Origin: Acidimicrobiaceae bacterium
GTDB taxonomy: Bacteria; Actinomycetota; Acidimicrobiia; Acidimicrobiales; RAAP-2
Direction of reading: 5' to 3'
Assembly (NCBI GenBank): GCA_003132305.1
Contig: PKXJ01000028.1
Span: 29,795 to 70,703 of the forward strand
Length of the DNA: 40,909 bases
A program made the translations under genes and the position numbers. The notes under the pieces are model-generated. The model was not told the DNA's origin and searched no databases. It saw only the letters and a program-made list of their open reading frames with translations. This document shows positions 1-35,342 of this stretch, piece by piece; position 1 is the first letter of the stretch, and the number at the start of each line of letters is the position of its first letter.

Positions 1-432
1 CTGATCGCCGGTGTAGTGCAGCAGCGACACGCCGGCCCGTGCCCAGGCCATCATGGTGAGGCCCGAGCAGTCGAAGGCCGCGGGACCGGCACCACCCCAG
101 AGGTACGGCTTGCCGAGCTGGGCCAGCGCGTAGGTGATCGCCACGGTCTCGGCCGCCGTCGCGTCGGCGGGCATCACGTAGTTCGCGGGCAGGCCGTCAC
201 TGACGACCGGCGAAGTGGGCAGGGTGGCGATCGCCGCCGCGCCACAGTTCGCGTTCGAGGACGGTGTCGTCGTAGTCGTTGTCGTTGATGTCTTCGAAGA
301 CGTCAGCGTGGACAGCGTGCACGCAGCGGCCTGGGCCGTGCCGCCCACCGTGGCGAACAGGACGGCCAGGCCTAAGAGGGCCACCACGAACACCGCGAGG
401 GGCACCGCAAGCAAGAGCACGACTCTCTTCAC
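1..432 (-). CDS. NlpC/P60-family cell-wall hydrolase, C-terminus cut by window edge
   Basis: Reading leftwards from a GTG at 432, the frame stays open to the window edge. Residues about 5-35 form a hydrophobic signal peptide or membrane anchor after a VKR start. A Ser/Thr-rich linker with seven consecutive Thr follows, and then a domain with the pattern AQLGKPYLWGG and DCSGL. The Cys at about residue 122 in DCSGL is the catalytic cysteine expected of NlpC/P60 peptidases, which cleave peptidoglycan stem peptides outside the membrane. The catalytic His lies beyond the window. The GTG overlaps the stop of the upstream sortase gene (GTGA), so the two are translationally coupled. With the adhesin they form a surface-assembly operon, and the hydrolase may open the wall for the attached protein (inference). 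Confidence 0.85.
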   Translation of the reverse strand, partial: MKRVVLLLAVPLAVFVVALLGLAVLFATVGGTAQAAACTLSTLTSSKTSTTTTTTTPSSNANCGAAAIATLPTSPVVSDGLPANYVMPADATAAETVAITYALAQLGKPYLWGGAGPAAFDCSGLTMMAWARAGVSLLHYTGDQ

Positions 433-15422: not shown

Positions 15423-15896
15423 TTAGGTCCGTTCATCGCGCCGATTCCACGGCGGCACGCCGTGCAGATCCATCCACTCCGATTCGGCCCGCCCAGACTC
15501 ATCCGAATTGGTGACGCGGCACCAAATCTCGATCTCTGCACCTTGATTCAACACCACATTGGCAAGAGCATTGATCCGACAATTGGTCTCTTGGCCACCG
15601 TTTCGTTTGCCCGGTTCGCGCGCGTACGTGTTGTAATCACTGATTGTCGAGTATCCCAATGATCCGAGTCGCTTCGCTAGAGTCGTGCGAGTTTGTCCGA
15701 CATACACAATGTTGCCATTGACCCGCCAAATGTAAACCCCGGGTTCCACAGGGAGTCGGGGCATAACCAGCCGGGCAAAGGGACCATCACCGTACGAGTT
15801 GCGATGCCTGCCCGGACGTGGCGGACCCGGCACAATGTTGAGTCCCCGATGGGCAACAACTCCAGCCAAGGAGAAGTTCTCCAGAGAATCCATCAA
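15423..15896 (-). CDS. GIY-YIG nuclease encoded at the end of the hsd operon
   Basis: This 157-residue protein contains a compact GIY-YIG fold: GVY (53-55), YVG (65-67), Arg70/Arg76, Glu138/Glu140 and a closing PPWNRR with Asn151. These are the residues expected of an active nuclease of this superfamily, which cuts DNA through a Tyr and a metal-bound Glu. The N-terminal 45 residues are basic and Pro-rich. The ATG overlaps the hsdR stop (ATGA), so it should be co-translated with the type I restriction enzyme. Its role there is unknown: it could be an additional nuclease or an accessory effector. Confidence 0.75.
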   Translation of the reverse strand: MMDSLENFSLAGVVAHRGLNIVPGPPRPGRHRNSYGDGPFARLVMPRLPVEPGVYIWRVNGNIVYVGQTRTTLAKRLGSLGYSTISDYNTYAREPGKRNGGQETNCRINALANVVLNQGAEIEIWCRVTNSDESGRAESEWMDLHGVPPWNRRDERT

Positions 15897-18800: not shown

Positions 18801-18898
18801 GGCAGGGATTCGGAATCGACGAACTTCCAGCCGAGGTCCACCCTCATCAGGCGCATTACAAGCGCGTCTTGAACGGCAGACTCAGCGAGCTCTGTCAT
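15893..18898 (-). CDS. hsdR: Type I restriction enzyme, R (motor/nuclease) subunit
   Basis: I chose the ATG at 18898 (MTELAESAVQDAL), which overlaps the hsdS end by 17 bases. It gives 1001 residues, a normal HsdR length. The N-terminal nuclease domain of PD-(D/E)xK type is seen as RYDVVLFVNGFPIVVGETKTP (about 139-158). The superfamily 2 motor has HHQGSGKT Walker A (about 294-301), VDEAHRTQ (about 390-397) and GLTGTP, with a helicase C part including LLTGFDAP. It translocates DNA and cleaves unmethylated targets in complex with HsdM and HsdS. Last but one in the operon hsdM-hsdS-hsdR-GIY-YIG. Confidence 0.95.
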   Translation of the reverse strand: MTELAESAVQDALVMRLMRVDLGWKFVDSESLPREHDSVLLEDYVADALMRLNPDISERPDRIHEVLPRLRAVLLSPANDGLVAANEEMVTWMCGRKTVRFSEAEEYVPINLIDFENPKSNDLIVSTEVTFKTGKEERRYDVVLFVNGFPIVVGETKTPISKHTSWLNGANDIHVAYEVKTPAYFVPNVLSFATEGKELRYGAVRQPPEMWLPWSKTTDELSLLGLGSVLRSAELLLAPEMLLDILRTYTLFSRRSSTHGGYLIKMIPRYPQVEAVEAIVARVRDSRKRQGLIWHHQGSGKTLLMAFAAARLRQLMDLDAPTILVVLDRLELIEQLQGEFASVGIPSLKTAETRDELRKMLSEDVRGVIVTTIYRFKDAGELNTRSNIVVMVDEAHRTQEGRLGLDMREALPNAKFIGLTGTPISTADRNTWETFGDPADPEGVMNHYSVERSIADGATLPIHIETRLVDFHIDQRALDEAFIELAEGEGLDERETGILAKRASRVDQIMKSPERVGAVCADIVEHYRGKVAPLGLKAQVVAFDRELCVAYYEAIAALLEEGEEATVVMTTAKGDPAAWDTWSLDRDQEARIKDRFRDIDDPLKFVIVTAKLLTGFDAPIDGVMYLDKPLRAHTLFQAVCRTNRRWTNPNTGQEKLHGLVVDYVGMGSELAKAVAVSDTAERKAFPAEVDELVTLLGEYVGECMVRFHGVDRNAKGFEQLYEAQNCLPTQADRDSFAADFIRAEGLFEFLWPDTAIRPVEADYKWLSRIYKSIMPTDAPDKLLWQRLGAKTTALISEYVTGFEVDSRGLETVAIDAEVFEAFRQLNLFPDIDPTMPEPPTIEDVLGNLENRLRRKLAGASDHPVWRSLAERLEDLRRSRVDSAAASVEFLKRLLELAKDLVTAEKADEEGRLSEIKVVDPDRGALTQILEEYAPPDVPVIIETVVERIDQIVRPVRGTGWQESQPGDREVRQQLRLVLRSNGLPPQGEIFDRAYAYIREHY

Positions 18899-20075
18899 GA
18901 GGACCCCCCAGCAAGGCATCGTAGGAATTGGGGATCTCAAGATGACCCGATAGGAGTGATGTCAACAGCGCGTACCTAACTTCGGACAATGCTTCCTGTG
19001 AAGCGTGGGCAGCTATCCCAACATCTCGCAGCATTCCAATAAAATCTGCTACCTGATGCTGCTTTTCCAATGCGGGTACTGGAATCTCAATATCAAATAA
19101 CTCTCGTCGATTAATTTTTGGCATCTTCGTCCGACCTGATTTCGCGACGCTTCGCTGGGTGAACGAGTCAGAGAGAAGCACTTCCAGCAAGTACTCAGGA
19201 ATTAGCTCGGCGCATGGCCTGAGCGGATAAGCGTCCGCGCTGCACAGCCCACTCGAAGCAGGGAATGCGGCTTTCCGAAGTTCCGGCCTAATCTTCGAAT
19301 AGATGACGTCACGAGAGTCGAACAGATGTTTGCCGCTTGTTACTCCGTCCTGCTCAGCGCTAAGAAGTGGAAGAAGTGTTCCCTCTGACGAGACAATCTT
19401 GTCGACTCCGATGTGAGGCAGGTTCCTATATTCATCCAGAGTCGGGTTAACGAGCTTCGACTCGATCATTGCAACCTCGCCTAACGGGCGAAGTGATTGG
19501 GTCCAGTCGATCAACTCACTTCTTGCAGCATTCGCAGATTCCCGTGCCCGGCGTGCAACCTCATCAGTGGCGCCGAGCCGTTCGTCAATCACTTCAATAA
19601 GATCCACAATTCGACGCTGCTCCAGCAACGGTGGAACGTCGATCTGGATTTGAGCAAACGCTTGATAGGGAAGACTTCTCCGTCGGTTCACCGTGCCTTG
19701 CGCATTCGAGCGGTACGTCTCGAGCATCGTCGGCGACCTCAACAAGAGCTCGAAGAATCCTGGCTCCTGATCCTTTCCAAACCAAGTTAGAGTCGTGTAC
19801 ATAGGGCTCAGGACTCCAGTGAGGCCCGTTCTATTACGAGCGATTGAACCCTCGTCGATGTGAATAGTGGAATAGGCCCACTCGTCAGGCTTCAACACCT
19901 TGTAGCCCTCTAAATCAGCCGATGCGATCCGCTTGTCGAAATACTCACTAGCAAGCACAACACCGTCGTACTTGGACAAAGAGAAGACGGAAGGCTCAAC
20001 TGCATGATTGCCGAGCTTCTCGTTGTCAATTGAAAGAACATCACCAAGTCGGATAGTGCTCCATTGGTCACGCAT
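18882..20075 (-). CDS. hsdS: Type I restriction-modification specificity subunit
   Basis: This 397-residue protein has the two-target-recognition-domain plan of HsdS. The first domain ends with LPYQAFAQIQIDVPPLLEQRRIVDLIEVIDERL, a conserved coiled-coil spacer. The second ends with RRELFDIEIPVPALEKQHQVADFIGML. These repeats bracket a split DNA recognition site whose sequence cannot be read from the protein. It starts at an ATG overlapping the hsdM stop by eight bases. Both recognition domains look full length, so the system should be functional. Confidence 0.92.
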   Translation of the reverse strand: MRDQWSTIRLGDVLSIDNEKLGNHAVEPSVFSLSKYDGVVLASEYFDKRIASADLEGYKVLKPDEWAYSTIHIDEGSIARNRTGLTGVLSPMYTTLTWFGKDQEPGFFELLLRSPTMLETYRSNAQGTVNRRRSLPYQAFAQIQIDVPPLLEQRRIVDLIEVIDERLGATDEVARRARESANAARSELIDWTQSLRPLGEVAMIESKLVNPTLDEYRNLPHIGVDKIVSSEGTLLPLLSAEQDGVTSGKHLFDSRDVIYSKIRPELRKAAFPASSGLCSADAYPLRPCAELIPEYLLEVLLSDSFTQRSVAKSGRTKMPKINRRELFDIEIPVPALEKQHQVADFIGMLRDVGIAAHASQEALSEVRYALLTSLLSGHLEIPNSYDALLGGPHDRAR

Positions 20076-21567
20076 AGCCCACGGCCTTAAGGCGCTCAGC
20101 CAACTTTGCTTCAGCCGCGCGCAAGGCGACCTGCGCGGTCGCGAGACTGGAAAGCGCCGCTGCGATGTCGGCTCTCTCGCTGTTTTCTGCTTTCAGATAA
20201 CGGCCAATATTCAAATCCCAGCCGTTCTCCTCAATCTCCGCGTGCTCTACAAGACGTGCGAAAACTTTCTCATCACTGCACCCTTCGCCTGACTGGTATG
20301 TAGCCAAGATCGCGTCAGCGTCCGAGTTGTCCATGGTGTTCTGGTTTTTGCCTCTTGAGAACCTAAGTGAACCGTCAACGAACAGAACAGTGCCCTTGCG
20401 CGACAGTTCCTTCTTGGAACGAAATATTAAGAGGCACGCTGGAATGCTGGTCGAGTAGAAGAGGTTGGCCGGCAGACCGATGATAGTTTCCAGTTGATCG
20501 TTCTCAATTAAGCACTGGCGAATCTTTCCCTCAGCACTGCCACGGAATAAGACCCCGTGGGGCATAACCACTCCAAGCCGACCCCCGCTCGGATCCATTG
20601 AGGCCACCATGTGCTGAACCCAGGCGAAGTCCGCGTTGCCCGCGGGTGGTACGCCACATTCAGCTCGACTCCAGGGATCGGAGTTCCAGGTGTCTGCCCC
20701 CCAACCCTTCAATGAAAACGGCGGATTGGCCATGACCACCTTGAATCGCTGGAGCCGTCCTTTGTCGTCGAGGAACCTGGGCTGACGGAGGGTGTCACCT
20801 CGGATGATCTTCGCGTCCTCGATGTCATGAAGGAAAAGGTTCATTCGAGCAATGGCCGCAGTCGTGAGGTTAACTTCTTGTCCGTAGAAGCGCATCTGTT
20901 TAAGTGAACCGCCAGCTTCGATGACCTCATTGGCCGCTTCGACGAGCATCCCACCGGAGCCGCACGCTGGATCGTAGATGGAATCAGTGGGCTTGGGTTC
21001 TAGGATGCGGGTCAGCAGTCTGACGACGGTTCGCGGAGTGAAGAACTCACCCGCCTTCTTACCTGACTCGTCGGCGAATTGCTTCAACAGGTACTCGTAC
21101 GCGTTGCCGAGGACATCGTGTCCGACCGCTTCGGGCGAGAGGTTCAGCGTGCCGAAAGACTCGATGAGGGCTAGAAGAGCTGTCTCGGGAAGCTTGTCCT
21201 TATTGCCCCATGGGACGTCGCCAAAGATTCCGGCCAATGTCTCAGGATTGGCCTGTTGGATGCGGTCGAGGATGTTCTGCAGCGCCACGCCGATGTTCTC
21301 AGCGACTCGACGCAGATCGACCCAACGGCAACCGGGAGGGATCACAAATCGGTGGTAATCGGCTTCGATCTCGTCCGTCAGATCATCTTCGAAGTCCACG
21401 ATCGCCCGTGCCCGCTCGGCGTCCCAACTGTCGTTGATCCGCTTATAAAAGAGCAGCGGGAAGATGTAGGCCTTAAAGTCTGAAGGATCGACCGGACCGC
21501 GAAGAGAGTTTGCCGCAGCCCACAGTCGGCTTTCGAGTTCCTGCTGGCTCACTCCGATTTGAGCCAT
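20068..21567 (-). CDS. hsdM: Type I restriction-modification methyltransferase subunit
   Basis: The ATG at 21567 has GGGGAAAGG seven bases upstream and gives 499 residues; the longer frame starting at 21594 lacks a ribosome site. The N-terminal helical domain (LESRLWAAANSLRGPVDPSDFKAYIFPLLFYKRI) is typical of HsdM. DPACGSGGML (about 199) is the SAM-binding motif and NPPFSL (about 277) is the N6-adenine catalytic motif. With HsdS it methylates adenine in the target and with HsdR it forms the restriction complex. It heads the minus-strand hsd operon. Confidence 0.95.
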   Translation of the reverse strand: MAQIGVSQQELESRLWAAANSLRGPVDPSDFKAYIFPLLFYKRINDSWDAERARAIVDFEDDLTDEIEADYHRFVIPPGCRWVDLRRVAENIGVALQNILDRIQQANPETLAGIFGDVPWGNKDKLPETALLALIESFGTLNLSPEAVGHDVLGNAYEYLLKQFADESGKKAGEFFTPRTVVRLLTRILEPKPTDSIYDPACGSGGMLVEAANEVIEAGGSLKQMRFYGQEVNLTTAAIARMNLFLHDIEDAKIIRGDTLRQPRFLDDKGRLQRFKVVMANPPFSLKGWGADTWNSDPWSRAECGVPPAGNADFAWVQHMVASMDPSGGRLGVVMPHGVLFRGSAEGKIRQCLIENDQLETIIGLPANLFYSTSIPACLLIFRSKKELSRKGTVLFVDGSLRFSRGKNQNTMDNSDADAILATYQSGEGCSDEKVFARLVEHAEIEENGWDLNIGRYLKAENSERADIAAALSSLATAQVALRAAEAKLAERLKAVGYA

Positions 21568-21878
21568 TATCAGACCTTTCCCCATTATCTTCACTCGAGT
21601 TGTTCAATTGACATCCCCATGTAAAGGTTGATCCTATCTAGGGCAGACACTTGAAGTTGAATCGCCCAGGAACACTCGGGAACGACGGTGACTTAACCGC
21701 ATGACTCCAACTAGCTCAGATCTCCAGTGTTCCACATGCCCCCTAAATTAGACCGTGAATCGATCCCTTGATGCGCCCAGGGATTGATCCATCTGCCGGG
21801 CGCCAGAAGGTGCTCCTGGACCCTTGAGTGAGTTTTGGGCGATGATGATGATGCCTTACCCGTAGATGGAGGCGCGAC

Positions 21879-23742: not shown

Positions 23743-25446
23743 TCAGCCTACTAACGCTCGGGCATCTGTCGGTCTGACGATTACAACCTTATGCCTCGCT
23801 CTCGTAATTCCCACTCGCAGTAACCGCCGACTCGCGATAAACGGTGCTTCCTCCCGACTCTCATCGAAGAATTTGCTCTTGTACTTTCCCTCCACCAGTA
23901 CTACCGCATCGAACTCTTTTCCTTTCGACTTGTGTATGGTCATGATCAGGCAACCTTGCGGATCACGTTGACTGGAAATGATCCTTCCCATATTCAAAGT
24001 ACGCTTCACTATGTCAGACGCGTTGCCGTAGGAGCCTCGTTCGGACCACTCTTGTGCGAGACGATTGCCGATCTCGTCGGTTGCCCGGAAGAGCCTGACG
24101 TAGCGCACGTTGGCGTGAACTTCTTTGAACTCGGGAATCTGAGCAACCACCTCACGCGCCCTTATCCAGTCGGCAGCCGGATCGCCATTGATTTTGAGGC
24201 CAAGATTGAACGCCTCGACCAACTGAATTGCTGATCGAGGGCGTGGCAGAGCGCCTTCGGCCACTTTGTTAGACGCGGTTCGATAGCGGGTCATGGTACT
24301 CTCCGCCGACGCGCTGGGAGTAATTGAATTCTTCACTTCGAAATAGTCGGCAATCGCGGTGAGCGATCTGGACACGGCGACCGAGACGTCACGATCGGGC
24401 CACTCAAGGATTGACGCTATTACTTGAGCAGCCGCTGCAGTAAGCTCGGCGTCCCAAACAACGTCGTGATCGACTGGTCGCAACGAGTAGCCATTGTACG
24501 CATGCTCGACACTGAAAATTGCAGACAAGTCCGCCACAAACGGATTAGCTCGACACAACACCGCAACCGACGGTTCAGTGATCCCCGCCTGACGAAGAGC
24601 GGACAAGGTCCAGATCAGCGCTGCGTGAACCTGTGACTCGAAATTTCGCGTCCAATAGCGGATCACTTGCACATCAGCAGTATCGGGAAGTTCTCGGTTA
24701 TAAAGGATGGCATCCGCGTACTGCAAAATCCCAGCGTCGGGGCTGCGATGATTCTCCCCACCAAGATCAAACTCCGCAGGGTGCAAGAACTCCCGGAGCA
24801 GATCGAGGCGCCGAGGATCGACGCGCGAGTCGTATTCGAAAATACGCTGGTCTGGATCTGCCAGAATCACCAGACGGCTTCCCACGGAGAGGATCTTCAC
24901 CAACTCCCATTGAGCATCGTCAGTGTCCTGAAACTCATCAACGATGATTACGGGGTACTTGTCGGCAATAAGTTCGCGCACTGAAGATGATCTTGCGAGC
25001 AGACCGGCGCTGGAGCTTGCGAACAGATCGAAAACATAGAGTCCGTCTTCCGTAGCCAACCGGAGTCGCTCTGCCTCCCAATCCCCGCCAAAGGCTGCTT
25101 TGTCAACACGCTCCGGCCCAGGAAAGTAAAGCCGCGCTGGTCCTCCAGTTAGGAGTCGTCCGTGCGCCCTCAAAATGTCCATGCAGAATGCGTGATAGGT
25201 CTTGACGTTGATACTCTGGCGCTCTTCAAAAGTCAGCAAATCTCTGCACCTAGTGAGAACCTGGCGAACGGCCGCTCGTGAGAAGCTTAGGAACAGAATC
25301 TCTTGACCAGTCTTCAGATCCGTCATCAGCCGTTGTGCCTTTAACAGTGAGAGCGTCGTCTTTCCCGACCCGGGACCTCCCAGTACCAAGATTGGGCAAT
25401 CTTCGGCCAGGGCTGCTTGTGCTTGCTCCGATAGATCCAGATTCAT
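23743..25446 (-). CDS. UvrD-like helicase, GajB-like component of a Gabija system
   Basis: This 567-residue superfamily 1 helicase has GGPGSGKTT (Walker A, residues 23-31), LFLSFSRAAVRQVL (motif Ia), VIIVDEFQDTD (DExQ Walker B) and LLRVGITRARHKVVIV (motif VI). It lacks the large accessory domains of UvrD/PcrA, as expected of GajB, which is about 500 residues. Its start overlaps the upstream OLD-type nuclease stop (ATGA). In Gabija, the GajB helicase works with the GajA nuclease to cut phage DNA when nucleotide pools fall. Motifs point to an intact enzyme. Confidence 0.85.
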   Translation of the reverse strand: MNLDLSEQAQAALAEDCPILVLGGPGSGKTTLSLLKAQRLMTDLKTGQEILFLSFSRAAVRQVLTRCRDLLTFEERQSINVKTYHAFCMDILRAHGRLLTGGPARLYFPGPERVDKAAFGGDWEAERLRLATEDGLYVFDLFASSSAGLLARSSSVRELIADKYPVIIVDEFQDTDDAQWELVKILSVGSRLVILADPDQRIFEYDSRVDPRRLDLLREFLHPAEFDLGGENHRSPDAGILQYADAILYNRELPDTADVQVIRYWTRNFESQVHAALIWTLSALRQAGITEPSVAVLCRANPFVADLSAIFSVEHAYNGYSLRPVDHDVVWDAELTAAAAQVIASILEWPDRDVSVAVSRSLTAIADYFEVKNSITPSASAESTMTRYRTASNKVAEGALPRPRSAIQLVEAFNLGLKINGDPAADWIRAREVVAQIPEFKEVHANVRYVRLFRATDEIGNRLAQEWSERGSYGNASDIVKRTLNMGRIISSQRDPQGCLIMTIHKSKGKEFDAVVLVEGKYKSKFFDESREEAPFIASRRLLRVGITRARHKVVIVRPTDARALVG

Positions 25447-27308
25447 CCGTCCGGTTCCGCCGCAGACGATTCCGCAACTGTGATCGCCGCAGACCGAACG
25501 CCTATATCTTCATATGCATTGGTCAAGGACTCGTCGATGGTCGTCAAGACTTCGCGGATAAATTCCGGCATCTCTTCCTCCGTCTCGCAATGATCCATGA
25601 CCATGGCTGCGTAGCTCCACGCGTCACCTTTCCGAGCCTTCAGGACCCTAAAGGCTATGTCTCCAACTTGTTCGTCTGGGGTCTCTGATGAATAAGGCCC
25701 TCGGCTAGCGGGGTAGTCAGGTCGCTGTGACACCTCGTCCAAGAACCGACGTAATACCACGATTGGAGTCTGGTCGACGATCAGGCGCTCGATGCCCTTT
25801 TCCGGTGACTGCCAATAATGGTCGAACTTGGCCAAATTCGTTCGAGCCTCCTTGCCCAGTGGCGTGTTCGGTTGATCGAACACAGCAAAGGACGTTTTTG
25901 CAAGAGCTCTGAAAATTGGCCCGTAACGATGGACGTCGCCATCTCCGCTGGCGGTAAAGATTGTGAGACCCGCGAGATCGAAGTGCGTGTACTCGTCGGG
26001 CTTCAGGCCTTCGAGAACTGACGACGCAACTGAGAAGACCGCGGCCTCGGTTGTTCCTTCCACCACCAGGACGGCCTTACTCAAGATCGCTTCGGCGAAC
26101 TGGCGTCGCTCGGTGCGATAGGCCTTGGGCTTAACTCCGGCCGTGTCGATCGGTTCGCCTATTAGAGTTCCTTGAGCGTCCCGATTGAGCATCACGATGT
26201 TGTTGGGCTCAAACTGCTCAATGACATATGGCGAATGGGAGGTGACGATTGACTGACCCATCTCCTGGAGAACAAAACGCGTCACCCGCCGTTGCGTATG
26301 AGGAGGCAGGGCTATCTCTGGCTCTTCCATCGCGAAGATGACTGACTGCTTTCCCCTCAAGTCAGCGATCAAGGTGAGCAGCGCGAAGACCAGTAGGTTG
26401 ATCGAACCAGTACCTTGTCGCGCGTAAGGAACCAGGTGATTGCTGGGCTCGGTGGCGATGAAAAGCCGAACTACTTCTCGCATGTGCTCGCGAGTCAGGT
26501 CCGATGCAAAGAATGCCGCCGAATCATCGCCAGGGGCGAGGTTCACGAACTTCGCGAGCCGCGTCCGAATCTCGGCGCGGACCTCCTTAAGCTGCTCAAC
26601 GTCTCCGATTGCAGGGTCAAGTGTCTGGAGGGTAGTCAAAGTATCGCGCCACATAGCCGTCGCGCCCTCTCCCCCAAGTTTCAGAATCGTATCGAGCAGA
26701 GACCCCCTCTGGAGGCTCAGGGCTCGAGATCCAGTACGTAATGTGCGCAAGAATATGAACCCACATAAACGCTTGTGAGACCGCATGAACTGAGCACGGC
26801 CTTGTCCAAGCTTTGCTAACTCTTCCTCATCCAAGTCGTCGGGTACAGGGACTGGATGGTTAAAGAAGGTGTCACCGACAAAGTCGTCTTCGTCACTGTC
26901 GTACCGGCCTAGGAATAGAAGTGGCAGCGCCCATACCACTCCCTCCGCATCGGCGCGGTCTGCACCGCCTTGCTCCTCATCCATAAACTCGTATGTCTCG
27001 TCATCCCAGCGTCTGATGTGCTGCCCGAATTGGCGCAAGGCTTCGCTGGAGAGGTCAATCAACACAACATCGATACGAATTTCACGTGAGTTTCCATCAT
27101 CTTCGAGGTATTGACCCAAGCAGAAGTCGTGTTCATCAACAACTGGCCGACGATACAGCCGTTCCGGGCCAAGCACGAGGTCGAGCGCTTCACAGACGGT
27201 CGACTTGCCCACGTTGTTACCGCCGACGAGCAGAGTGTTGTCATTGAACCGAACACGACCGATGCCAACACCTCGAAAGTTCTGGATGTCGAGCTGGCGT
27301 ACTTTCAC
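25443..27308 (-). CDS. OLD-type ATPase/TOPRIM nuclease, GajA-like component of a Gabija system
   Basis: This 621-residue protein starts at GTG 27308, with GAGGA about ten bases upstream. GGNNVGKST (29-37) is the Walker A motif of the ABC-type ATPase, and FAMEEPEIALPPHTQRR is the signature and Walker B region with a following SHSPYVIEQF. After the ATPase comes a TOPRIM nuclease starting LVVEGTTEAAVF (about 411) with SGDGD and FAVFDQPNT as likely metal-binding acids. This is the GajA/OLD class 2 architecture, here slightly longer than the about 580 residues of the best-known GajA. It pairs directly with the UvrD-like gene, which is the Gabija arrangement. Confidence 0.85.
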   Translation of the reverse strand: MKVRQLDIQNFRGVGIGRVRFNDNTLLVGGNNVGKSTVCEALDLVLGPERLYRRPVVDEHDFCLGQYLEDDGNSREIRIDVVLIDLSSEALRQFGQHIRRWDDETYEFMDEEQGGADRADAEGVVWALPLLFLGRYDSDEDDFVGDTFFNHPVPVPDDLDEEELAKLGQGRAQFMRSHKRLCGFIFLRTLRTGSRALSLQRGSLLDTILKLGGEGATAMWRDTLTTLQTLDPAIGDVEQLKEVRAEIRTRLAKFVNLAPGDDSAAFFASDLTREHMREVVRLFIATEPSNHLVPYARQGTGSINLLVFALLTLIADLRGKQSVIFAMEEPEIALPPHTQRRVTRFVLQEMGQSIVTSHSPYVIEQFEPNNIVMLNRDAQGTLIGEPIDTAGVKPKAYRTERRQFAEAILSKAVLVVEGTTEAAVFSVASSVLEGLKPDEYTHFDLAGLTIFTASGDGDVHRYGPIFRALAKTSFAVFDQPNTPLGKEARTNLAKFDHYWQSPEKGIERLIVDQTPIVVLRRFLDEVSQRPDYPASRGPYSSETPDEQVGDIAFRVLKARKGDAWSYAAMVMDHCETEEEMPEFIREVLTTIDESLTNAYEDIGVRSAAITVAESSAAEPDG

Positions 27309-27680: not shown

Positions 27681-28325
27681 TCAGTCGTCGAGTGACTCAA
27701 CTGAAGCAACGAGGCGGTGCATGCCAGAAGATGGGTTGTCGTGCGGGAAGACGGTGGCGTTCTGCATATGGCGATTGTCGAGTTCTGCCGCGCGTTGCGC
27801 CGCAAGACTCACGAGCGGCATGTAAGTGGCGGCATTCAGCCCTTTGTCGGTTGACCGATCGAGTTTTCGGCGGAGTCTTCGAGCATCATCGTTATCTAGC
27901 CACGCACTCTGATCCTGAAAGTGCAGGATCAGCCATATTTCAAAACATGGATTGGACACAGCAAGGTGAATGCAGTTCTGGCGAGCCTGCTCAATAGCGT
28001 CTTTGAGGTCTGGATGGTTTCTCGGCCATTCGACATCGAAGACACACCAGAACTCATCGATCTCACCCTCCTCATCGATCGCACGACTGCGGGCATCAAT
28101 GGCCATCGACACTAGAGTCCGGGGCACTGATCCTCCGTGATCGGTCTCGACTCGAATGTCGACCGCCGCTATGTCGCGCACCGAGGGCTGTCTCTTGAGC
28201 GCGTCGAGGTACTCTGGCTCTGTTCTCTTCCCTTCGCAGAAAACTACCAACGTCTTTCGAGGGCTTCGGATCGCCACTCTCCGTTTGAGTTGCCTGCTGC
28301 CCCTTCCATTACGTTTGCCGACCAT
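27681..28325 (-). CDS. RloB-like protein, second component of an AbiL-like system
   Basis: This 214-residue protein shows TLVVFCEGKRTEPEYL (residues 25-40) and FWCVFDVEW (92-100), the metal-binding glutamate and aspartate of a TOPRIM-like fold, and the RloB hallmark SNPCFEIWLILH (124-135). RloB-like proteins are encoded beside AAA ATPases in AbiL and related abortive-infection systems and are thought to be the toxic nuclease partner. The ATG shares one base with the ATPase stop (TAATG), so the two are coupled. Confidence 0.8.
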   Translation of the reverse strand: MVGKRNGRGSRQLKRRVAIRSPRKTLVVFCEGKRTEPEYLDALKRQPSVRDIAAVDIRVETDHGGSVPRTLVSMAIDARSRAIDEEGEIDEFWCVFDVEWPRNHPDLKDAIEQARQNCIHLAVSNPCFEIWLILHFQDQSAWLDNDDARRLRRKLDRSTDKGLNAATYMPLVSLAAQRAAELDNRHMQNATVFPHDNPSSGMHRLVASVESLDD

Positions 28326-29629
28326 TACGAGTCGCTCGAAGCCAAACCTAAGGCACGACGAAGCATGTACTGGTCAAGTTCAGGAACGGCGCCAAATCTT
28401 CCCTGAAGATACGCCTTCTCCAGGTTCAGCGATCGTCGCACCTTGTCACTTCCGAACTCCGCTAACGCAGTCAGGGTTGTGGCACCACCATCATCCTTCT
28501 CCGTCAGCCAGACCTCGTCTCGATTGAGATGGTTAAGAAGGCTCGTATCGTGCGTCGTGAAAATAAGCTGAGCTCCGTGAGGATTGGTTTCGGGATCTTG
28601 AAAGAGCTCGAGCAGCCGAGCTGAAAGTCGGGGGTGAAGACTCGCGTCGATTTCATCGAAGATGAGAATTCGACCGTTACGCAAGGCGTTGAGCGTCGGA
28701 CCAATCAGCGCAAACCAGGTCTGGGTCCCAGCCGACTCTTCGTCAAGGTCAAAAGCCAATTCCTGCTCGGCTACGCGGTGCATAAGTCGCAACTGGCGTC
28801 TTGGTTCTCTTCGCGCTTGGGTCGAAATGTTAAGTTCGTCCTCCTGCTCCTCCACAATCCGCACATCGTCAATCCCAAGATCTGCGAATCGCAACAACGC
28901 CAAAGCCGATTCTCGTGGACTCTTTGCAACAGAGTCGGGGTCGTCGAAAATTGACCTCTGATATATCGGGTCTCGCTCATCGAACAGGCGCGCTGTCGAG
29001 GACAACGCCGGGGCACCACCCACTAGAGACCGTCGCCATGGCGTCCGGCGCTTGACGCCAAGAACTATCATTCCCGCGAGATAGCGTCCGAAGAATTGAA
29101 CTTCTGGTTCATCAAACCTCATGGCTGCGGACAACGCCAACGTCGTGGGCGTCAAGAGTTCCCGCGTGCCGGCCAGAGTCCCGAGTCCCCGTCGGAAGCG
29201 AATTTCCATGTCTTCTCGCTCGAAGAGCACCCTCCTTCGTCGTTCCGGGTAGCTATACAAGCCCTCGAATTTGACTTCCGAGTCATCGACTTCAACGCGG
29301 TACGTGTATCGCACTCCGCCAACTACGCCCTCCACTTCATACGTCGACGGCATCATGGGTCCTAAGCCGAACTTGAAGGGCTCACGTGGAATGAAGTCAT
29401 CCCACGTGCGTAGGGATCGCCCAACAGCCGCGGAGAGCCATGCCAAAGCCTCGACGACATTTGACTTCCCCGATGCATTGGGCCCGTAGATCCCAGCGAT
29501 CGCCAGCACACGTTCAGAAAGCAGATCAAAACCGCGAGTGGAGGGCCTGTCCTCATCAACGGCAATCATTGATAACTCGATCGGTTCCGATATGGACCGA
29601 TGATTGGAGACTTCAAATCTCAAGAGCAT
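28325..29629 (-). CDS. AAA15/21-type ATPase, first component of an AbiL-like system
   Basis: This 434-residue protein starts at an ATG with AAGGAGGAGACAT directly upstream. GPNASGKSN (49-57) is Walker A. A long helical insertion and the signature region precede RILIFDEIDASLHP (about 318-331), the Walker B, and LIFTTHDTSLLNHLN is the H-loop. This is the SMC-like ATPase family found with RloB in AbiL-like defence. It probably senses infection and holds or releases its nuclease partner, by analogy with PARIS. It is the first gene of a minus-strand series that continues through the Gabija-like genes. Confidence 0.82.
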   Translation of the reverse strand: MLLRFEVSNHRSISEPIELSMIAVDEDRPSTRGFDLLSERVLAIAGIYGPNASGKSNVVEALAWLSAAVGRSLRTWDDFIPREPFKFGLGPMMPSTYEVEGVVGGVRYTYRVEVDDSEVKFEGLYSYPERRRRVLFEREDMEIRFRRGLGTLAGTRELLTPTTLALSAAMRFDEPEVQFFGRYLAGMIVLGVKRRTPWRRSLVGGAPALSSTARLFDERDPIYQRSIFDDPDSVAKSPRESALALLRFADLGIDDVRIVEEQEDELNISTQARREPRRQLRLMHRVAEQELAFDLDEESAGTQTWFALIGPTLNALRNGRILIFDEIDASLHPRLSARLLELFQDPETNPHGAQLIFTTHDTSLLNHLNRDEVWLTEKDDGGATTLTALAEFGSDKVRRSLNLEKAYLQGRFGAVPELDQYMLRRALGLASSDS

Positions 29630-29785: not shown

Positions 29786-31642
29786 GTGACTACGCCAATC
29801 GAGAGAATCGGCGCTGAAAAGTTCGCCTTGGCATTTCCTCAAAATTGCCAGAACTTGGCGTGGCTGCTCGGAGCGGGTGCCTCAGCCGCCGCAGGCATAC
29901 CCACCGGCTACGACATGATTATTGATTTCAAGACCCGACTATTCTGCGAAGCGGTGAAGATCCGGCGTCGAGAAGTCGACACTGGCGACCCATTGTGGTT
30001 GCAGCGGATCACCGCATTCTTCGACGACGCTCACGGAATGCCCGCCGCAGGCGACGCCGATGAGTACGCGGCATTATTCGAAGCCGTCTATCCGAAGCCA
30101 AGCGACCGTCGTACATACATTGAGAAGGCAGTCCGTCTTGGTAAGTCATCCTACGGACACAGGGTTCTCGCTGCCCTCATCGCGAGCGGCCAAGTACCCT
30201 GCCTATTCACAACCAATTTCGACCCGCTCGTTGAACGTGCGACTACCGTCGCCGATGAGCTGTTACCCGCCGCCAGCCAGATCCATTTGACCGTGGCAGA
30301 TATTGACAGCGCCGAACGCGCAGAGCGCTGTCTGCGAGAAAGTTCGTGGCCACTGCTAACCAAGCTGCACGGGGATTATAAGGAGGAGAGGCTGAAGAAT
30401 ACATCGGCCGAGCTTGCCCACGAGGACGAGCGACTACTCAAGGTGATGGTCGGATGCTGTGCCCGGTTCGGCTTAGTGGTCGCTGGATACAGCGGCCGTG
30501 ACGCGTCGGTCATGGCTGCCCTCACCGAAGCCATTCCGGGTGGTTTTCCGGCGGGTCTGTTCTGGATAACTCGTCCGGGCACGGCCTTGCTCCCCTCCGT
30601 GGCTGAGTTGCTTGCGCAAGCTTCAACTTCAGGAGTTGTAACTCGCCTTGTCGAAGTGGATAACTTCGATGAATTTGCGAGCTCTCTTGACCGTCAGGCA
30701 ACCTTGCCCGCCATACTGTCGAATCAGGTCCGCTCGGCAAAGCCGGCAGCGCGGGTCCAACCGGTCGCCTTACCGACAGTGGAAATTGCCAGTTTCCCGG
30801 TGCTGCGATGCTCGGCGTTGCCTCTCCTTGAGGTCCCTACCATCGCTCGCCGACTCGTACTCGTCGAGTCTTCAACGACATTGGCCGTTCGGAACCTGCT
30901 CCGGGACAGCGGGACCCACGGAGTAGTCGCCTGCCAAGGCCCGGAAGTCGCTGCATTCGGACAGGACGAGGCGTTGGTCGCCGCCCTCGCTCCGCTTGGC
31001 GCTCGCATCGATGGCGAAATCACCCTTGACCCGCACGCCAATAGTTGGGTCTTGGGACTCCTATATGACGCTCTGACACGAGCGCTGGCGCGTCGCCGTC
31101 CACTACGACCCCAGCTCCGCCGCAGCGGACACTCATTGGTTGTCGCCGTTCCCGATGTCACCCGCGACGATCCTGCCGCCATACGAGATCGCAACGAGCT
31201 CAAGATTCTCCGTGACGCATACGGCAGCGCTCTTAGCGGGACCGCTGGCCAACTTGGACTGCCATTCGCCGAAGCTGTCCGACTGCGACTCGAATGGTGG
31301 CTGAACCGTTGGTGGTGTGTGTTCGATCCATTCACGTGGGTTGAACAACCTCGACGAACATCGACGGGCGAGAGTGACTTCGACAGTCGGGGTAACGAAC
31401 GCCGAGGCGGCGACCCCGTGGGAGATTGGCGACGCGAGCGATGGGCAACTCGCCGCAACAGCGAATGGGCGAGCATCCTCGAAGGGTGGGCACGCCTGCT
31501 TGCCCCCGACGGCGAGACAACGGTCCAGGCGATAGATCTTCGCGGCTCTCCTGGTCTCGACGCTCAGTTCACCCTCACGGTCGCAACAGCGTGGAGCCGA
31601 CCTGGTGGCCAACTCGCCACGACTCCGTCGAGACAGCAATGA
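29786..31642 (+). CDS. SIR2-APAZ protein of a SPARSA-like short Argonaute system
   Basis: Start is the GTG at 29786; the ribosome site is weak (GGACGG). The N-terminal SIR2 domain (about 20-290) has LLGAGASAAAGIP (28-39), FTTNFDP (141-147, Asn144 and Asp146), KLHGDY with catalytic His195 and VVAGYSGRD (231-239), all expected of an NAD-hydrolysing SIR2 domain. The rest, to residue 618, should be the APAZ region that grips a short Argonaute. Together with the following gene this is the SPARSA arrangement, which depletes NAD after guide-directed recognition of invader nucleic acid and kills or halts the cell. Divergent from the AbiL-like genes. Confidence 0.87.
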   Translation: MTTPIERIGAEKFALAFPQNCQNLAWLLGAGASAAAGIPTGYDMIIDFKTRLFCEAVKIRRREVDTGDPLWLQRITAFFDDAHGMPAAGDADEYAALFEAVYPKPSDRRTYIEKAVRLGKSSYGHRVLAALIASGQVPCLFTTNFDPLVERATTVADELLPAASQIHLTVADIDSAERAERCLRESSWPLLTKLHGDYKEERLKNTSAELAHEDERLLKVMVGCCARFGLVVAGYSGRDASVMAALTEAIPGGFPAGLFWITRPGTALLPSVAELLAQASTSGVVTRLVEVDNFDEFASSLDRQATLPAILSNQVRSAKPAARVQPVALPTVEIASFPVLRCSALPLLEVPTIARRLVLVESSTTLAVRNLLRDSGTHGVVACQGPEVAAFGQDEALVAALAPLGARIDGEITLDPHANSWVLGLLYDALTRALARRRPLRPQLRRSGHSLVVAVPDVTRDDPAAIRDRNELKILRDAYGSALSGTAGQLGLPFAEAVRLRLEWWLNRWWCVFDPFTWVEQPRRTSTGESDFDSRGNERRGGDPVGDWRRERWATRRNSEWASILEGWARLLAPDGETTVQAIDLRGSPGLDAQFTLTVATAWSRPGGQLATTPSRQQ

Positions 31643-33126
31643 CTCCCGCTTCGCAACGGAACGGCCGTCGGCCGTCGGCGAACTACGACGTTGCCAAGTT
31701 GCCGCCTTATTCTTCCTTACCCGAGCCGTTGCTACAATTCGCCGCCGACCGTGACGATGCTCGAGGGCCGCATCCCCTCCGTGGGCTTGCCTCCTTTGGG
31801 CCCTACTCGCGGTCTGGACTCGCCACCTATACACCGCAGGTGCGCGTTGCAACCGTCGGTCCGGCGTCAGGTCAACGCGCTATGCGTGAACTCCTCGCAG
31901 GACTAACTCACGAGCACCAACCCGGCGACCGGCCCGACTACGTGCCGCCCTACCCGGGCTTTGCCGCTGTATTCAACGTCGGTTTCGACCTCGCCGATAC
32001 CGACGCCGCGCACATCTCCTTGCCAGACCGCCTCGACCAACTCGGCTCGACAGGTCCTCCGCACGAACGAGTGGCGGCGGCTCTTGCTGGCGCAGTTAAC
32101 CAACTCAACGACGTCCGTCACGCCTTCGATCTGGCAGTCGTGCATCTACCTGATTCGTGGGATGCAGGCTTACGTACTCGCGAGTTCGATGCCCACGACT
32201 ACCTGAAGGCAGTCGGCGCTCTCGCCGGGATCCCCACACAGGTCATCAACGACCGGGCTTTCACCTTCCGGTATCGGGCGTCATTGGCTTGGCGGCTGTC
32301 GATCGCCTCCTACGTCAAGGCCGGCGGGATTCCCTGGAAGCTCGCTCCACTACCCGGCGTCCCTTCGGACACGGCATATATCGGTCTCGCCTACGCTTTT
32401 CGCGGCGACCCCCGCGAAGCCCAGTTCGTTACCTGCTGCTCGCAAGTGTTTGACGCTGACGGTGGCGGCATGCAGTTCGTCGCCTACGACGCCAACGATC
32501 CGGTCGAGGACAGCGATCAGGCACGCCACAACCCATACCTCAGCCGAGACGACATGCGTGCTGTGCTGGCCCGCAGCCTGCGCACCTATCAGTCGCGCAA
32601 TGGCGGACGCGTACCGCGGCGCGTCGTAATCCACAAGACAACGGGATTCCGCAACGACGAACTAGCCGGCGCTGCCGATGCCCTCGAAGCGGTCGAGGAG
32701 GTCGACTGCATCGAGTTGACGACAAATGTGGCCTGGCGAGCAGTATGGCTACAAGCGAGCCGACGAAATAACGAGCGAAGCCAACCCGATCGGTATCCAG
32801 TTCCGAGAGGCACGATGGTCCCCGTCTCTGGAACCGCCGCTCTGCTTTGGGGAGCAGGGAACTCGCCGGGTGTGTCAAGCCGAGGTAATTTTTACCAAGG
32901 TGGCAAGAGCATCCCCCGCCCGCTTCTGCTTACCCGTCACGCCGGATCAGGCCCTCTCGAGATCGCTGGACTAGAGGCATTGGCCCTCACGAAAATGGAC
33001 TGGAACAATGACGCGCTTTACGATCCGGTGCCAGTGACCATCCGTTACTCACAACTGCTCGCCCGGACGATCGCTAACGTCCCATCGCTGCCCCGCGCCG
33101 AATATCCATATCGTCTCTTCATGTGA
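31639..33126 (+). CDS. Short prokaryotic Argonaute (MID-PIWI) partner of SIR2-APAZ
   Basis: The ATG at 31639 overlaps the SIR2-APAZ stop (ATGA), giving 495 residues, the size of short Argonautes (MID and PIWI only). The MID region has candidate guide-phosphate residues Lys190, Gln201 and Lys227 in LKAVGALAGIPTQVI and ASYVKAGGIPWKL. PIWI strands follow, but TAYIGLAYAFRG lacks the first catalytic Asp of the DEDX tetrad (about Ala251), so it should bind but not slice targets. The C-terminus ALTKMDWNNDALYDPVPVTIRYSQLLAR and a final RLFM are typical. It would supply guide-directed target detection to the SIR2 effector. Confidence 0.9.
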   Translation: MTPASQRNGRRPSANYDVAKLPPYSSLPEPLLQFAADRDDARGPHPLRGLASFGPYSRSGLATYTPQVRVATVGPASGQRAMRELLAGLTHEHQPGDRPDYVPPYPGFAAVFNVGFDLADTDAAHISLPDRLDQLGSTGPPHERVAAALAGAVNQLNDVRHAFDLAVVHLPDSWDAGLRTREFDAHDYLKAVGALAGIPTQVINDRAFTFRYRASLAWRLSIASYVKAGGIPWKLAPLPGVPSDTAYIGLAYAFRGDPREAQFVTCCSQVFDADGGGMQFVAYDANDPVEDSDQARHNPYLSRDDMRAVLARSLRTYQSRNGGRVPRRVVIHKTTGFRNDELAGAADALEAVEEVDCIELTTNVAWRAVWLQASRRNNERSQPDRYPVPRGTMVPVSGTAALLWGAGNSPGVSSRGNFYQGGKSIPRPLLLTRHAGSGPLEIAGLEALALTKMDWNNDALYDPVPVTIRYSQLLARTIANVPSLPRAEYPYRLFM

Positions 33127-33662
33127 ACTGCGTCAGATTTCGATACGCCTGACGAGCTGGCGCCGAACCTAACGGTCAACAGCGTGAGTCACTTGCCTCA
33201 CCAATTTCATTCCTCATGGGCCCAGTCGCAGTTCCAAGACCTCCCCATTGATGCTCCGATGGATACATAGGTAATAGTGCAGACGTGGCCAACCGACGTT
33301 GCCGATAGCCAATTCGATAGCCACAGGATCAGCTTTTGGAGAACTCCAGAGAACGTTGGCGGATACTCGACTCCTTCCGGCCAACAAATCTGGGCGTTGA
33401 GCGAAGTCCCTGGGCGCTCTGAAGAGACTCCCAAGTTGCCAGCCTTCAGTTAGATTGTGTATGTCGGCCCCAGGATGTGAACTCGCACGATGTATTGTCT
33501 TCGTGAGAAGACTCGCTGGCGATCAACGACATCGAAAATGTCAGCGTTTCCGTCAGCAAATATTTTGAACTGACATGATCTGCGATGAACGCGCATGAAT
33601 GAAAAGCCTTATAAAATAGGACTTCTTGAACTTGAGTGAACGTCACTGAACCCAACGGGGGC
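33127..33662. other. Gap between the short Argonaute gene and the tRNA fragment
   Basis: About 535 bases after the Argonaute stop contain no convincing gene; the open frames are short and lack ribosome sites. This may be decayed sequence from the edge of the integrated element. Confidence 0.5.
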
Positions 33663-33709
33663 GCATGGCATGCAAGGGGTCCGGGGTTCGAATCCCCGTA
33701 CCTCCACCA
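33663..33709 (+). other. 3' half of tRNA-Ala(GGC): attachment-site-like fragment
   Basis: The stretch reads as a tRNA 3' half: anticodon loop ATGGCAT (33665-33671, anticodon GGC), the anticodon 3' stem strand, a T arm CGGGG-TTCGAAT-CCCCG (33682-33698), acceptor strand TACCTCC, discriminator A and CCA (33707-33709). The 5' half is absent: the sequence left of the anticodon loop does not pair with the anticodon 3' stem. Such fragments are left at the far end of elements that integrate into tRNA genes. By convention the element would lie to the left, with the intact tRNA-Ala outside this window. Confidence 0.7.
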
Positions 33710-33716
33710 AAAGGAA

Positions 33717-33727
33717 GTCTTTGATTG
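33717..33727 (+). repeat. Left copy of 11-bp direct repeat flanking the IS
   Basis: GTCTTTGATTG is repeated exactly at 35389-35399, so the two copies bracket the IS481-family insertion and mark its target duplication. The left copy abuts the TGTAAAAG end; the right one lies four bases beyond the right TTTACA end. Confidence 0.75.
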
Positions 33728-33736
33728 TGTAAAAGT

Positions 33737-33834: not shown

Positions 33835-33902
33835 CCCTTCCACCAGGCTGACACGCTGGCTCTCGGGTTCTGGACGTGCGTCCAGTGTTCGAGGAGGCCG
33901 CA

Positions 33903-35342
33903 ATGTTGATCGAGTTGACCATGGTTGAGCAGCGCTACTTAGCGGTGCGCGAAGTACTCGATACCGGCGCGACGATCACGCAAGTTGCCGCGCAATACGG
34001 CGTCGATCGACGGACGTTGCACCGCTGGCTCACCCGTTACGCCAACGGCGGACTCGAGGCGCTGGCGAACCGTTCGTCTCGTCCGGACTCGAGTCCGAAC
34101 CAGATGGACCCGAAGATCGAAGCGCGACTCGTGATGATGCGCCGACAGCACTCGGGTTGGGGACCGCGCACGCTGCGCACAAAGTTGGTGAACGAATACG
34201 CAGAACGTGCGCCGAGTCGCTCGGCGATCTATCGCGCGCTGGTGCGCCACCAACTCATCGTGCCCGCGCCGCGCCGGCGCCGGGTCCAGGACTACAAACG
34301 TTGGGAGCGTTCGCGTTCGATGGAGCTGTGGCAGATGGACGTGGTCGGACGGATCTACCTCTCCGATGGCACGCAGCTCAGCTGCGTGACCGACATCGAT
34401 GACCACAGCCGCTACTGCGTGAGTGCCCAGTTGGTCCTTCGCGCGACTGCCCGGCCGGTCTGTGACGCCCTGCTCCTCGCCCTCCAGCGTTACGGCCCAC
34501 CCGAGGAGATACTCACCGACAACGGCAAGGTCTTCACCGGGAAGCGGGCCCCCAAACCGGCCACCGTGCTCTTCGACCGGATCTGTCTTAACAACGCGAT
34601 CAAGCACCGCCTCACGGCGCCCTTTTCACCGACCACCACCGGCAAGGTCGAACGGTTGCACCGCACGATGCGCCGCGAGTTCTTTGACGAGGCGCGCTTC
34701 GCGACCATCGAGGAGACCCAGGCGGCGCTGGACGCGTGGGTGGTCCTCTACAACACGCAGCGCGAGCACCAGTCCCTGGGCGACGTGGTGCCGATGCGTC
34801 GCTTCGAGCTCGCTCGTGCTCGCGACGTCGACATCATCGACGGCGACGTCGAGCTCGAGAGCGTCATCGCTACGCGCAAGAGCCTCACCCGCGTGGTCGA
34901 TGACAAGGGCCGTGTTTCGGTGCTGACCTTTCGCTATCACGTGGGCCGCGCTTACAGTGGCGAACGGGTCCAGGTCACGAGTGACGACGGACTGCTCTAC
35001 GTGCACCACCGCGAAGTATTGATCGCCACCCACGCCCGGCGCCACCTCGTTGACGAGGACGTCGCCTTCTCGGCCCAACCACGGGCGAAGGCTCCCACCA
35101 AGGGCGACGAAGTGATCCGCAAAGTCGACCCGACCGGGGCGGTCAGCTTCGCCGGCACCAACTACCGCGTCGGCAACGCCTATCGCGGACGACTGGCCGG
35201 AGTGCGAATCGTGGGCGACACAGTGCAAATCACCGTCGACGACGTGCTCATTCGCACGCATCAATCGCGTCACGACAAGTCCAAGGAATACAGCGCCCTC
35301 GCTCAACCAAACGGCAAACCAAGGAGGAAAGATGTCGCATAG
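33903..35342 (+). CDS. IS481-family transposase with C-terminal extension
   Basis: Start at the ATG at 33903, with AGGAGG six bases upstream, rather than the in-frame start at 33876. The 479-residue protein begins with a helix-turn-helix (TITQVAAQYGVDRRTLHRWLTRY, 24-46). Its integrase-like DDE core has Asp146 (LWQMDVV), Asp206 (LTDNGK) and Glu250 (GKVERLH), with 43 residues between the last two as in IS481/IS3 relatives. About 150 residues follow with two SH3-like strands (GRVSVLTFRYHVGRAY, GAVSFAGTNYRVGNAY) seen in longer IS481 transposases. It seems intact and could be active. Confidence 0.92.
   Translation: MLIELTMVEQRYLAVREVLDTGATITQVAAQYGVDRRTLHRWLTRYANGGLEALANRSSRPDSSPNQMDPKIEARLVMMRRQHSGWGPRTLRTKLVNEYAERAPSRSAIYRALVRHQLIVPAPRRRRVQDYKRWERSRSMELWQMDVVGRIYLSDGTQLSCVTDIDDHSRYCVSAQLVLRATARPVCDALLLALQRYGPPEEILTDNGKVFTGKRAPKPATVLFDRICLNNAIKHRLTAPFSPTTTGKVERLHRTMRREFFDEARFATIEETQAALDAWVVLYNTQREHQSLGDVVPMRRFELARARDVDIIDGDVELESVIATRKSLTRVVDDKGRVSVLTFRYHVGRAYSGERVQVTSDDGLLYVHHREVLIATHARRHLVDEDVAFSAQPRAKAPTKGDEVIRKVDPTGAVSFAGTNYRVGNAYRGRLAGVRIVGDTVQITVDDVLIRTHQSRHDKSKEYSALAQPNGKPRRKDVA

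Follow-up and report, generated by a model that had tools for sequence, protein, structure and literature searches.

The window analysed here is a stretch of 40,909 nt without any N (C7:29795-70703) in an Acidimicrobiaceae genome of 2.91 Mb and 35 contigs, and it carries the 3' part of a tRNA-Ala(GGC) gene to the right of a relaxase gene and several sets of defence genes. A sequence-only reading had taken this fragment for the displaced attachment site at the far end of an element integrated to its left. The question raised by the locus is whether the fragment is an attachment end and, if so, which element it closed and where the other end of that element lies.

The tRNA-Ala(GGC) fragment

Window positions 33663-33710 read GCATGGCATGCAAGGGGTCCGGGGTTCGAATCCCCGTACCTCCACCAA and comprise one half of the anticodon arm, GGC included, followed by a 5-bp T stem free of mismatches and its loop, the acceptor strand and the CCA end. 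ARAGORN found no tRNA anywhere in the window and Rfam gave no match at gathering scores, and therefore the 5' half of the gene is absent. The sequence-only reading had described the same T arm, acceptor strand, CCA end and missing 5' half, and its coordinates (33663-33709) were correct to within one base. One intact tRNA-Ala(GGC), which that reading had proposed to look for, was found in the genome at C35:13415-13488(-), with a tyrosine integrase gene about 110 bp after it. The window fragment is identical to this gene at 45 of 48 positions and to the intact tRNA-Ala genes of two relatives, G029 and G009, at all 48. Searches of the genome with tRNA-Ala patterns gave no match when the pattern was reversed as a control.

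The genome holds 12 Ala-type fragments (listed in Table 1), a count that leaves out one further place with two mismatches at C19:46193, and all are broken at the same place to within two bases; four of the 12 are degenerate (C21:82015, C33:18595, C33:32112 and C33:627). The attachment repeat is present in about 13 copies. A strict T-arm scan of 247,811 bases of the genome's own contigs, in stretches that overlap, returned 12 places, namely two intact tRNAs, nine fragments (6 Ala, 2 Gly and 1 Val) and one ambiguous place (C35:8323), and none in the reversed control. Across 61 genomes, the tRNA-Ala(GGC) pattern was matched at least twice in 8 of the 37 genomes of the genus, this one included, and in none of the 24 from other families of the order; the present genome had the most matches, nine including the intact gene. 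Consecutive units split by attachment repeats in one orientation were seen on single contigs at C35 and at G028:C62. At C11:5596-5755 the sequence resembles that of the tRNA-Ala locus of G035:C86 over 163 nt at 78%, fragment included, which suggests that the distal chromosomal end of a tRNA-Ala array may lie there. Two of the fragments on C33, at 13770 and 32112 (loci L011 and L012), share 169 nt of upstream sequence at 98%.

A chance T-arm-like sequence, or a decayed tRNA pseudogene with no tie to mobile DNA, would explain the absent 5' half, which is the only point in its favour. This reading has virtually no chance of being right and was ruled out by the identity over 48 nt, by the dozen or so copies broken at one place to within two bases, and by the recurrence, in eight genomes of the genus with this one among them, of a conserved arm whose repeat pair keeps a fixed distance. 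The arm, the repeat pair and the matching intact tRNA identify the window fragment as a genuine attachment end, and in this the earlier claim of a displaced attachment site was borne out.

Table 1. Features of the window and Ala-type fragments of the genome. Positions are those of the window unless a contig is named.
Feature	Position	Strand	Evidence or remark
Right part of conserved backbone	2..288	-	Backbone C7:18208-30082, common to G034:C17 and G029:C17
TrwC/MobF relaxase-helicase	11700..15251	+	PF08751, E 2e-73
Type I restriction-modification HsdR/HsdS/HsdM	15893..21594	-	
Gabija pair GajB + GajA	23743..27308	-	
AbiLii/AbiLi pair	27681..29629	-	
SIR2-containing protein + short prokaryotic Argonaute (SPARSA-like), last genes before arm	29786..33126	+	
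Element terminal arm, ~135 bp	33528..33662	+	Conserved in same-class Ala-type ends of relatives and C21:82020-82168
Direct-repeat pair, class v2, probable integrase arm-type site	33540..33561	+	124 nt before fragment
tRNA-Ala(GGC) 3' part, anticodon loop to CCA, displaced attachment end (attR)	33663..33710	+	45/48 own genome, 48/48 G029 and G009
Probable remnant, left end of next Ala-type unit, interrupted by IS481-like element	33711..33735	+	Comparison by eye, weak (short)
IS481-like DDE transposase	33876..35342	+	rve, LZ_Tnp_IS481
Beta-lactamase-fold protein continuing on C21	40122..40907	+	PF00144
Ala-type fragments	C7:63459 (window's), C11:5598, C21:94773, C21:82015, C35:289, C35:7260		
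Ala-type fragments on C33	627, 13770, 18595, 21575, 26999, 32112		

The integrase family and its target

The tyrosine integrase beside the intact tRNA-Ala (P0001; 379 aa; PF00589, E 3.7e-31) is the cognate enzyme, and it lies on C35 and not on the window's contig; a second copy, broken in two frames, follows the next fragment on C35. A single scan of public genomes yielded 12 relatives of P0001, of which ten are close (60-73%), and six of these ten come from metagenome-assembled genomes (MAGs) titled Acidimicrobiaceae with palsa, bog or fen in the isolate names. The tRNA beside the close relatives is tRNA-Ala(GGC) in three cases and tRNA-Val(GAC) in four, in two others the preceding Ala or Val tRNA has NN within it, and one locus begins at a contig end; these counts omit the two remaining loci, L064 and L065, whose best segments are 34% and 29% alike. 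The public loci overlap with our set of genomes, since L059 is G036:C16 (also fetched as L078) and L056 is G035:C162 at the same coordinates. On the public MAG contigs L055 and L057 the NN gaps fall exactly inside the target tRNA gene, a sign of assemblers breaking or mis-joining at attachment repeats.

The two target tRNAs, Ala(GGC) and Val(GAC), have in common a near-palindromic anticodon arm, CTTGCATGRCAYGCAAG, and the fragments start inside that arm, which from the way tyrosine integrases work would be the expected crossover region. We thus envisage that a P0001-family integrase inserted an element into tRNA-Ala(GGC) by recombination at the palindromic anticodon stem-loop CTTGCATG-G-CATGCAAG; the gene would have been rebuilt at the integrase end, and the severed 3' part left at the far end, the window fragment being the attR made of the element's arm and the target's 3' part.

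A repeat pair in the element ends

The arm that precedes the window fragment is 72-85% identical in nucleotides to those of same-class ends, over stretches that take in part or all of the fragment. Within it stands a direct-repeat pair of 10-mers with a 12-bp period, GTCAGCGTTT CC GTCAGCAAAT. We labelled the variants of this pair v1 to v6, plus a Val class, the window's being v2. In 26 right ends from nine genomes of the genus (this one included) and one public contig, the pair was present in 22, standing 123-125 nt before the fragment in 21 of them and 114 nt in one; the other four had no pair and showed, by eye, a single copy in three cases and a pair with a changed AGC in one. At left ends bearing a P0001-type integrase, the pair follows the tRNA or fragment at a distance of 68-71 nt in 12 of 13 cases (11 of 12 if the doubly fetched G036:C16, L059 and L078, is counted once); in the sole exception, L058, a single base is changed, as judged by eye. 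Among 20,000 random 220-nt windows of the same loci, 414 contained a pair of this kind (7 of 10 or better).

Seven elements, entered by hand, have both ends readable, and their left and right pairs agree at 18-22 of 22 positions, an agreement reached by 2 of 5,040 permutations. This set leaves out the second unit of G028:C62, a mismatch with a v3 pair on the left and half a v4 pair on the right, and G008:C131, with a v3 pair on the left and a single v3 copy on the right. Similarity of the first 62 residues of the integrases was correlated with similarity of the pairs (r 0.54 for 15 integrases, equalled in 0 of 5,000 permutations, kinship ignored). When the same 13 integrases were compared throughout, r was 0.49 for the N-terminus (1 of 5,000) and 0.31 for the remainder of the protein (54 of 5,000), again with kinship ignored. 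Arm-type sites are familiar from lambda-type integrases, and these results suggest that the repeat pair may be an arm-type site bound by the N-terminus of the integrase. This apparent code, by which element ends would be matched to integrases, is the clearest new detail of the analysis.

Matching between both ends was seen across the family; the window's own element offers a right end only. Elsewhere in the genome the v2 pair (up to 3 mismatches) was found only at C21:82133, and this copy and the window's are both right ends, neither of them beside an integrase. In 10 genomes, which are incomplete MAGs, no helper integrase with v3 arms was found among those P0001 relatives whose start could be read; the public locus L054 has an integrase with class v3 arms. 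Between the tRNA-Ala and the fragment of G035:C120 (L071, 4479-13970) lie a Wadjet-like jetABCD set and an AbiEi/AbiEii pair, the AbiEi match being below the Pfam cut-off, and no recombinase was found among six of the unit's 12 ORFs of at least 130 aa, the other six overlapping those scanned. In the fragment at C33:32112, the T-stem region is replaced by sequence resembling a v1 repeat pair.

The conjugative element begins at tRNA-Gly(CCC)

The relaxase and defence genes do lie to the left of the window fragment, as the sequence-only reading had it, the relaxase at a distance of 18.4 kb, but the conjugative element to which the relaxase belongs starts at another tRNA. Where that reading had expected an intact tRNA-Ala there is an intact tRNA-Gly(CCC), at C7:13211-13284, followed by a different tyrosine integrase at C7:15474-16589; the left end is therefore Gly and not Ala. 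To the left of the tRNA-Gly are ORFs that by eye read as clpB, dnaJ, grpE and dnaK. The backbone to the left of the window includes a match to a type IV secretion coupling protein (E 4.4e-6), and the parts of the conjugative element found are the relaxase, this match, the Gly integrase and both Gly ends, along with an Ala end that has no matching left end. C28:202488-206033 encodes another relaxase of this family, with 84% protein identity, and an integrase and a tRNA-Arg(CCT) lie about 23 kb ahead of it.

The stretch from C7:13285 to the window fragment yielded no Ala fragment, since no ungapped place there exceeded 27 of 46 identities (none reached 60%), nor did C7 hold a second v2 pair at up to 3 mismatches. 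The search for left and right direct repeats across C7 gave only matches of 12-17 nt, such as chance would produce. The last genes before the arm were identified by PADLOC as Aga_SIR2 (E 5.4e-195) and pAgo_I (E 1.9e-195), the former also matching Pfam SIR2_2 and the Argonaute having no Pfam domain. SPARSA systems consist of a SIR2-APAZ protein and a short prokaryotic Argonaute, and the predicted SIR2 protein adjoining a short Argonaute fits this definition. The DNA of this region had no match beyond 43 nt in 41 genomes, with 7 candidate places scored in each; given this lack of a counterpart in relatives, the defence block may be a separate Ala unit.

Between 18,972 and 29,794, C7 contains five 2-base gaps and one 73-base gap, the latter at C7:29722-29794, directly before the window starts. 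The part to the left of the window is consequently tied to it by scaffolding.

The Gly island continues on a second contig

At its right end C7 overlaps C21 by 22 nt, and a protein is split across the two contigs, with PF00144 positions 1-205 on C7 and 209-317 on C21, which shows that C7 continues into C21. There, at C21:30110(-), is a tRNA-Gly(CCC) 3' fragment with a Gly arm repeat, whose 23-nt motif agrees at 21 of 23 positions with the copy after the tRNA-Gly on C7. In 342,331 fetched bases of the genome (overlapping stretches) this motif, at up to 4 mismatches, occurs only at C7:13377 and C21:30211. The Gly island so bounded is about 126 kb long, with 57.4 kb of it on C7 and 68.5 kb on C21; from the window Ala fragment onward, another 76 kb or so separate it from the right end of the island. 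The fragment, claimed earlier as the outer end of its element, is thus internal to this island. Also inside the island, and all in one orientation with it (C7:63459), are the Ala ends at C21:94773 and C21:82015 and a Val end at C21:44704; C21:28000-98651 is gapless.

Directly behind the window fragment, the short probable remnant AAAGGAAGTC TTTGATTG was compared by eye with AAAGGAAGTCCTGATAAC at G029:C29:11368, a likeness that is weak because of its shortness. Respiratory nitrate reductase genes (L014, C21:86228-93088; two proteins tested) lie between the Ala ends at C21:94773 and 82015 and are possibly the cargo of an Ala-type unit. The island also holds three tyrosine recombinase genes in a row at C21:47800-50185, resembling a recombinase-in-trio. 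Another stacked site is found at C3:76478-81492 (L115), where an intact tRNA-Gly(TCC) is followed 2.8 kb on by a Gly fragment; the integrase there shares 66% DNA identity with the Gly integrase of C7.

One backbone with different integrases

The backbone is shared with two relatives. On G029:C17 an intact tRNA-Ala and a v2 integrase are followed by backbone colinear with C7:18218-30073 at 72-80% nucleotide identity. G034:C17 shares this backbone from C7:18208 onwards (from 17,937 when compared in translation) and also has the relaxase, with a fragment named by eye as tRNA-Lys-like 12.4 kb after it. These loci show one backbone joined to different integrases or tRNAs, with a shared boundary near C7:18.2 kb. 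G029:C17 ends before the relaxase, G029 as a whole offers at best a distant relaxase match (28%, E 9.8e-8), and in that genome backbone, relaxase and v2 right end were not seen on one contig.

The Gly module of C7 recurs on G008:C102, with 99.7% identity over C7:15183-18239 (the G008 assembly has 6% contamination), while the adjoining 3.5 kb with the chromosomal flank are 90% alike. From this difference, the module probably moved between species recently. On C7 it joins 764 bp of backbone (C7:18208-18971) without a gap. The order across the gaps of C7 agrees with G034 and G029, C7 being about 1.3 kb longer than G034 between 18,971 and 20,509.

Origin of the Ala end

The right end in the window is of the same v2 class as the G029 integrase, and its fragment is closer to the G029 tRNA (48/48) than to that of its own genome (45/48); an origin from an Ala-type integrative and conjugative element (ICE) is therefore the most likely. 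We consider it probable, if well short of certain, that an Ala-type ICE, or its right part, had its integrase module replaced by a Gly-type one, so that the Ala end now persists as a fossil in the interior. On this view an ICE of Ala type, bearing a class v2 integrase of the kind seen in G029, would have brought in both the backbone and the right end, the two travelling together. Its left end and integrase module would then have been swapped for the Gly-type module, with the boundary near C7:18.2 kb, and further Ala-type units would have stacked behind the Ala end of the composite, within the tRNA-Gly(CCC) island that ends on C21. The backbones, only 72-80% alike, give no date for a recent exchange.

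Plain accretion would have it that the ICE is Gly-type throughout and that the Ala fragment marks the end of a unit of its own, of Ala type, which docked within the Gly island; this might be a defence island or a cis-mobilizable element, whose left end was lost or lies in an unreadable part. Right ends of class v2 also terminate units that are not demonstrably ICEs (C21:82020; G017 and G023), and the Ala end may therefore have come from a distinct defence unit added to a Gly ICE. Units with no detected integrase do occur, as at G035:C120, where both v3 arms are present and a fragment lies 9.4 kb from the intact tRNA-Ala; no Phage_integrase match accompanies the six Ala-type fragments of C33, and two more Ala ends lie on C21 inside the Gly island. 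We nevertheless hold accretion to be unlikely, though a serious contender, because neither an Ala fragment between the tRNA-Gly and the window fragment nor a second v2 pair was found on C7, and G029 ties the same backbone to tRNA-Ala and a v2 integrase. An assembly artefact seems improbable. The left half of a Gly-type ICE and the right half of an Ala-type element might have been scaffolded together if the backbone or the relaxase existed in more than one copy, and the N gaps in C7, the second relaxase copy on C28, the number of attachment repeats and the warning given by L055 and L057 of mis-joins at such repeats all point that way. Yet the Gly module runs gapless into the backbone, it is found in the separate genome G008, and the gene order across the gaps agrees with both relatives; the gapless stretch of C21, moreover, puts Ala ends upstream of the Gly right end independently of the gaps in C7.

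Beside the probable exchange of integrase modules, the arrangement of these sequences prompts a broader and rather doubtful idea, which we put forward tentatively. The 3' fragments of tRNA-Ala and tRNA-Val might serve as standing docking sites in a cassette-like manner. Cargo units lacking an integrase, such as Wadjet plus AbiE at G035:C120, would end in an arm whose 12-bp repeat pair stands 124 nt before the fragment, and a helper integrase acting in trans would read this pair as a code through its N-terminal domain. With such a fragment retained at its right end, an ICE could then take up defence units there while moving to another tRNA by its own, different integrase.

Discussion

Accretion arrays and integrase exchange are already known kinds of events, and the record of them here is unusually readable. 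In Dehalococcoides, according to the part of the account used here (PMC3146451), tandem islands at ssrA with respiratory cargo are delimited by an RNA gene and many direct repeats of its 3' end, and 15 of 31 lack an integration module and are proposed to be mobilized in cis by accretion. The present arrays are alike in stacking at one RNA gene with many 3' repeats. They differ from what that account describes, Ccr-type recombinases and tmRNA, in having tyrosine integrases, tRNA-Ala and tRNA-Val targets and paired arm repeats, and in that some ends are nested inside a tRNA-Gly island.

Streptomyces AICEs, as portrayed in the portion of PMC9513070 on which we draw, include several elements and defective remnants stacked at one tRNA, and within one family the elements occupy different sites and have divergent integrases. 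Accretion is common to those elements and ours, as is, probably, integrase switching. Unlike the TraB-bearing AICEs, the element described here has a TrwC/MobF relaxase, and its former attachment end seems to be kept as an internal fossil. The section on CIMEs in a review (PMC5704250) describes elements that keep attL and attR without an integrase, and new elements that insert into a resident's attR. The units reported here, known from their sequence, are similarly bounded by attachment sites, some with no integrase detected (G035:C120), but in contrast to the CIME accounts in that section, arm repeat pairs here identify the integrase class of a unit. That partial tRNA genes arise from integration is likewise stated in PMC9897764. 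Our literature search, which was not exhaustive, found no paper that deals with this bacterial group or treats paired repeats as a code for element ends.

It is easy to dismiss truncated tRNA genes as debris, yet most of those found here bear a readable label that names an integrase class. The dozen or so tRNA scraps in this genome are a record of how mobile DNA has been stacked and reshuffled in these bacteria. With the repeat pair as a label, the left and right ends of islands can be matched even when they are stacked or lie apart, and the label exposes both an ICE whose two ends seem to be of different integrase systems and integrase-less Wadjet/AbiE units at the same site. If the code holds, it would provide a test, from sequence only, of which integrase can move which unit, a practical question for the assembly of defence islands in uncultured bacteria.
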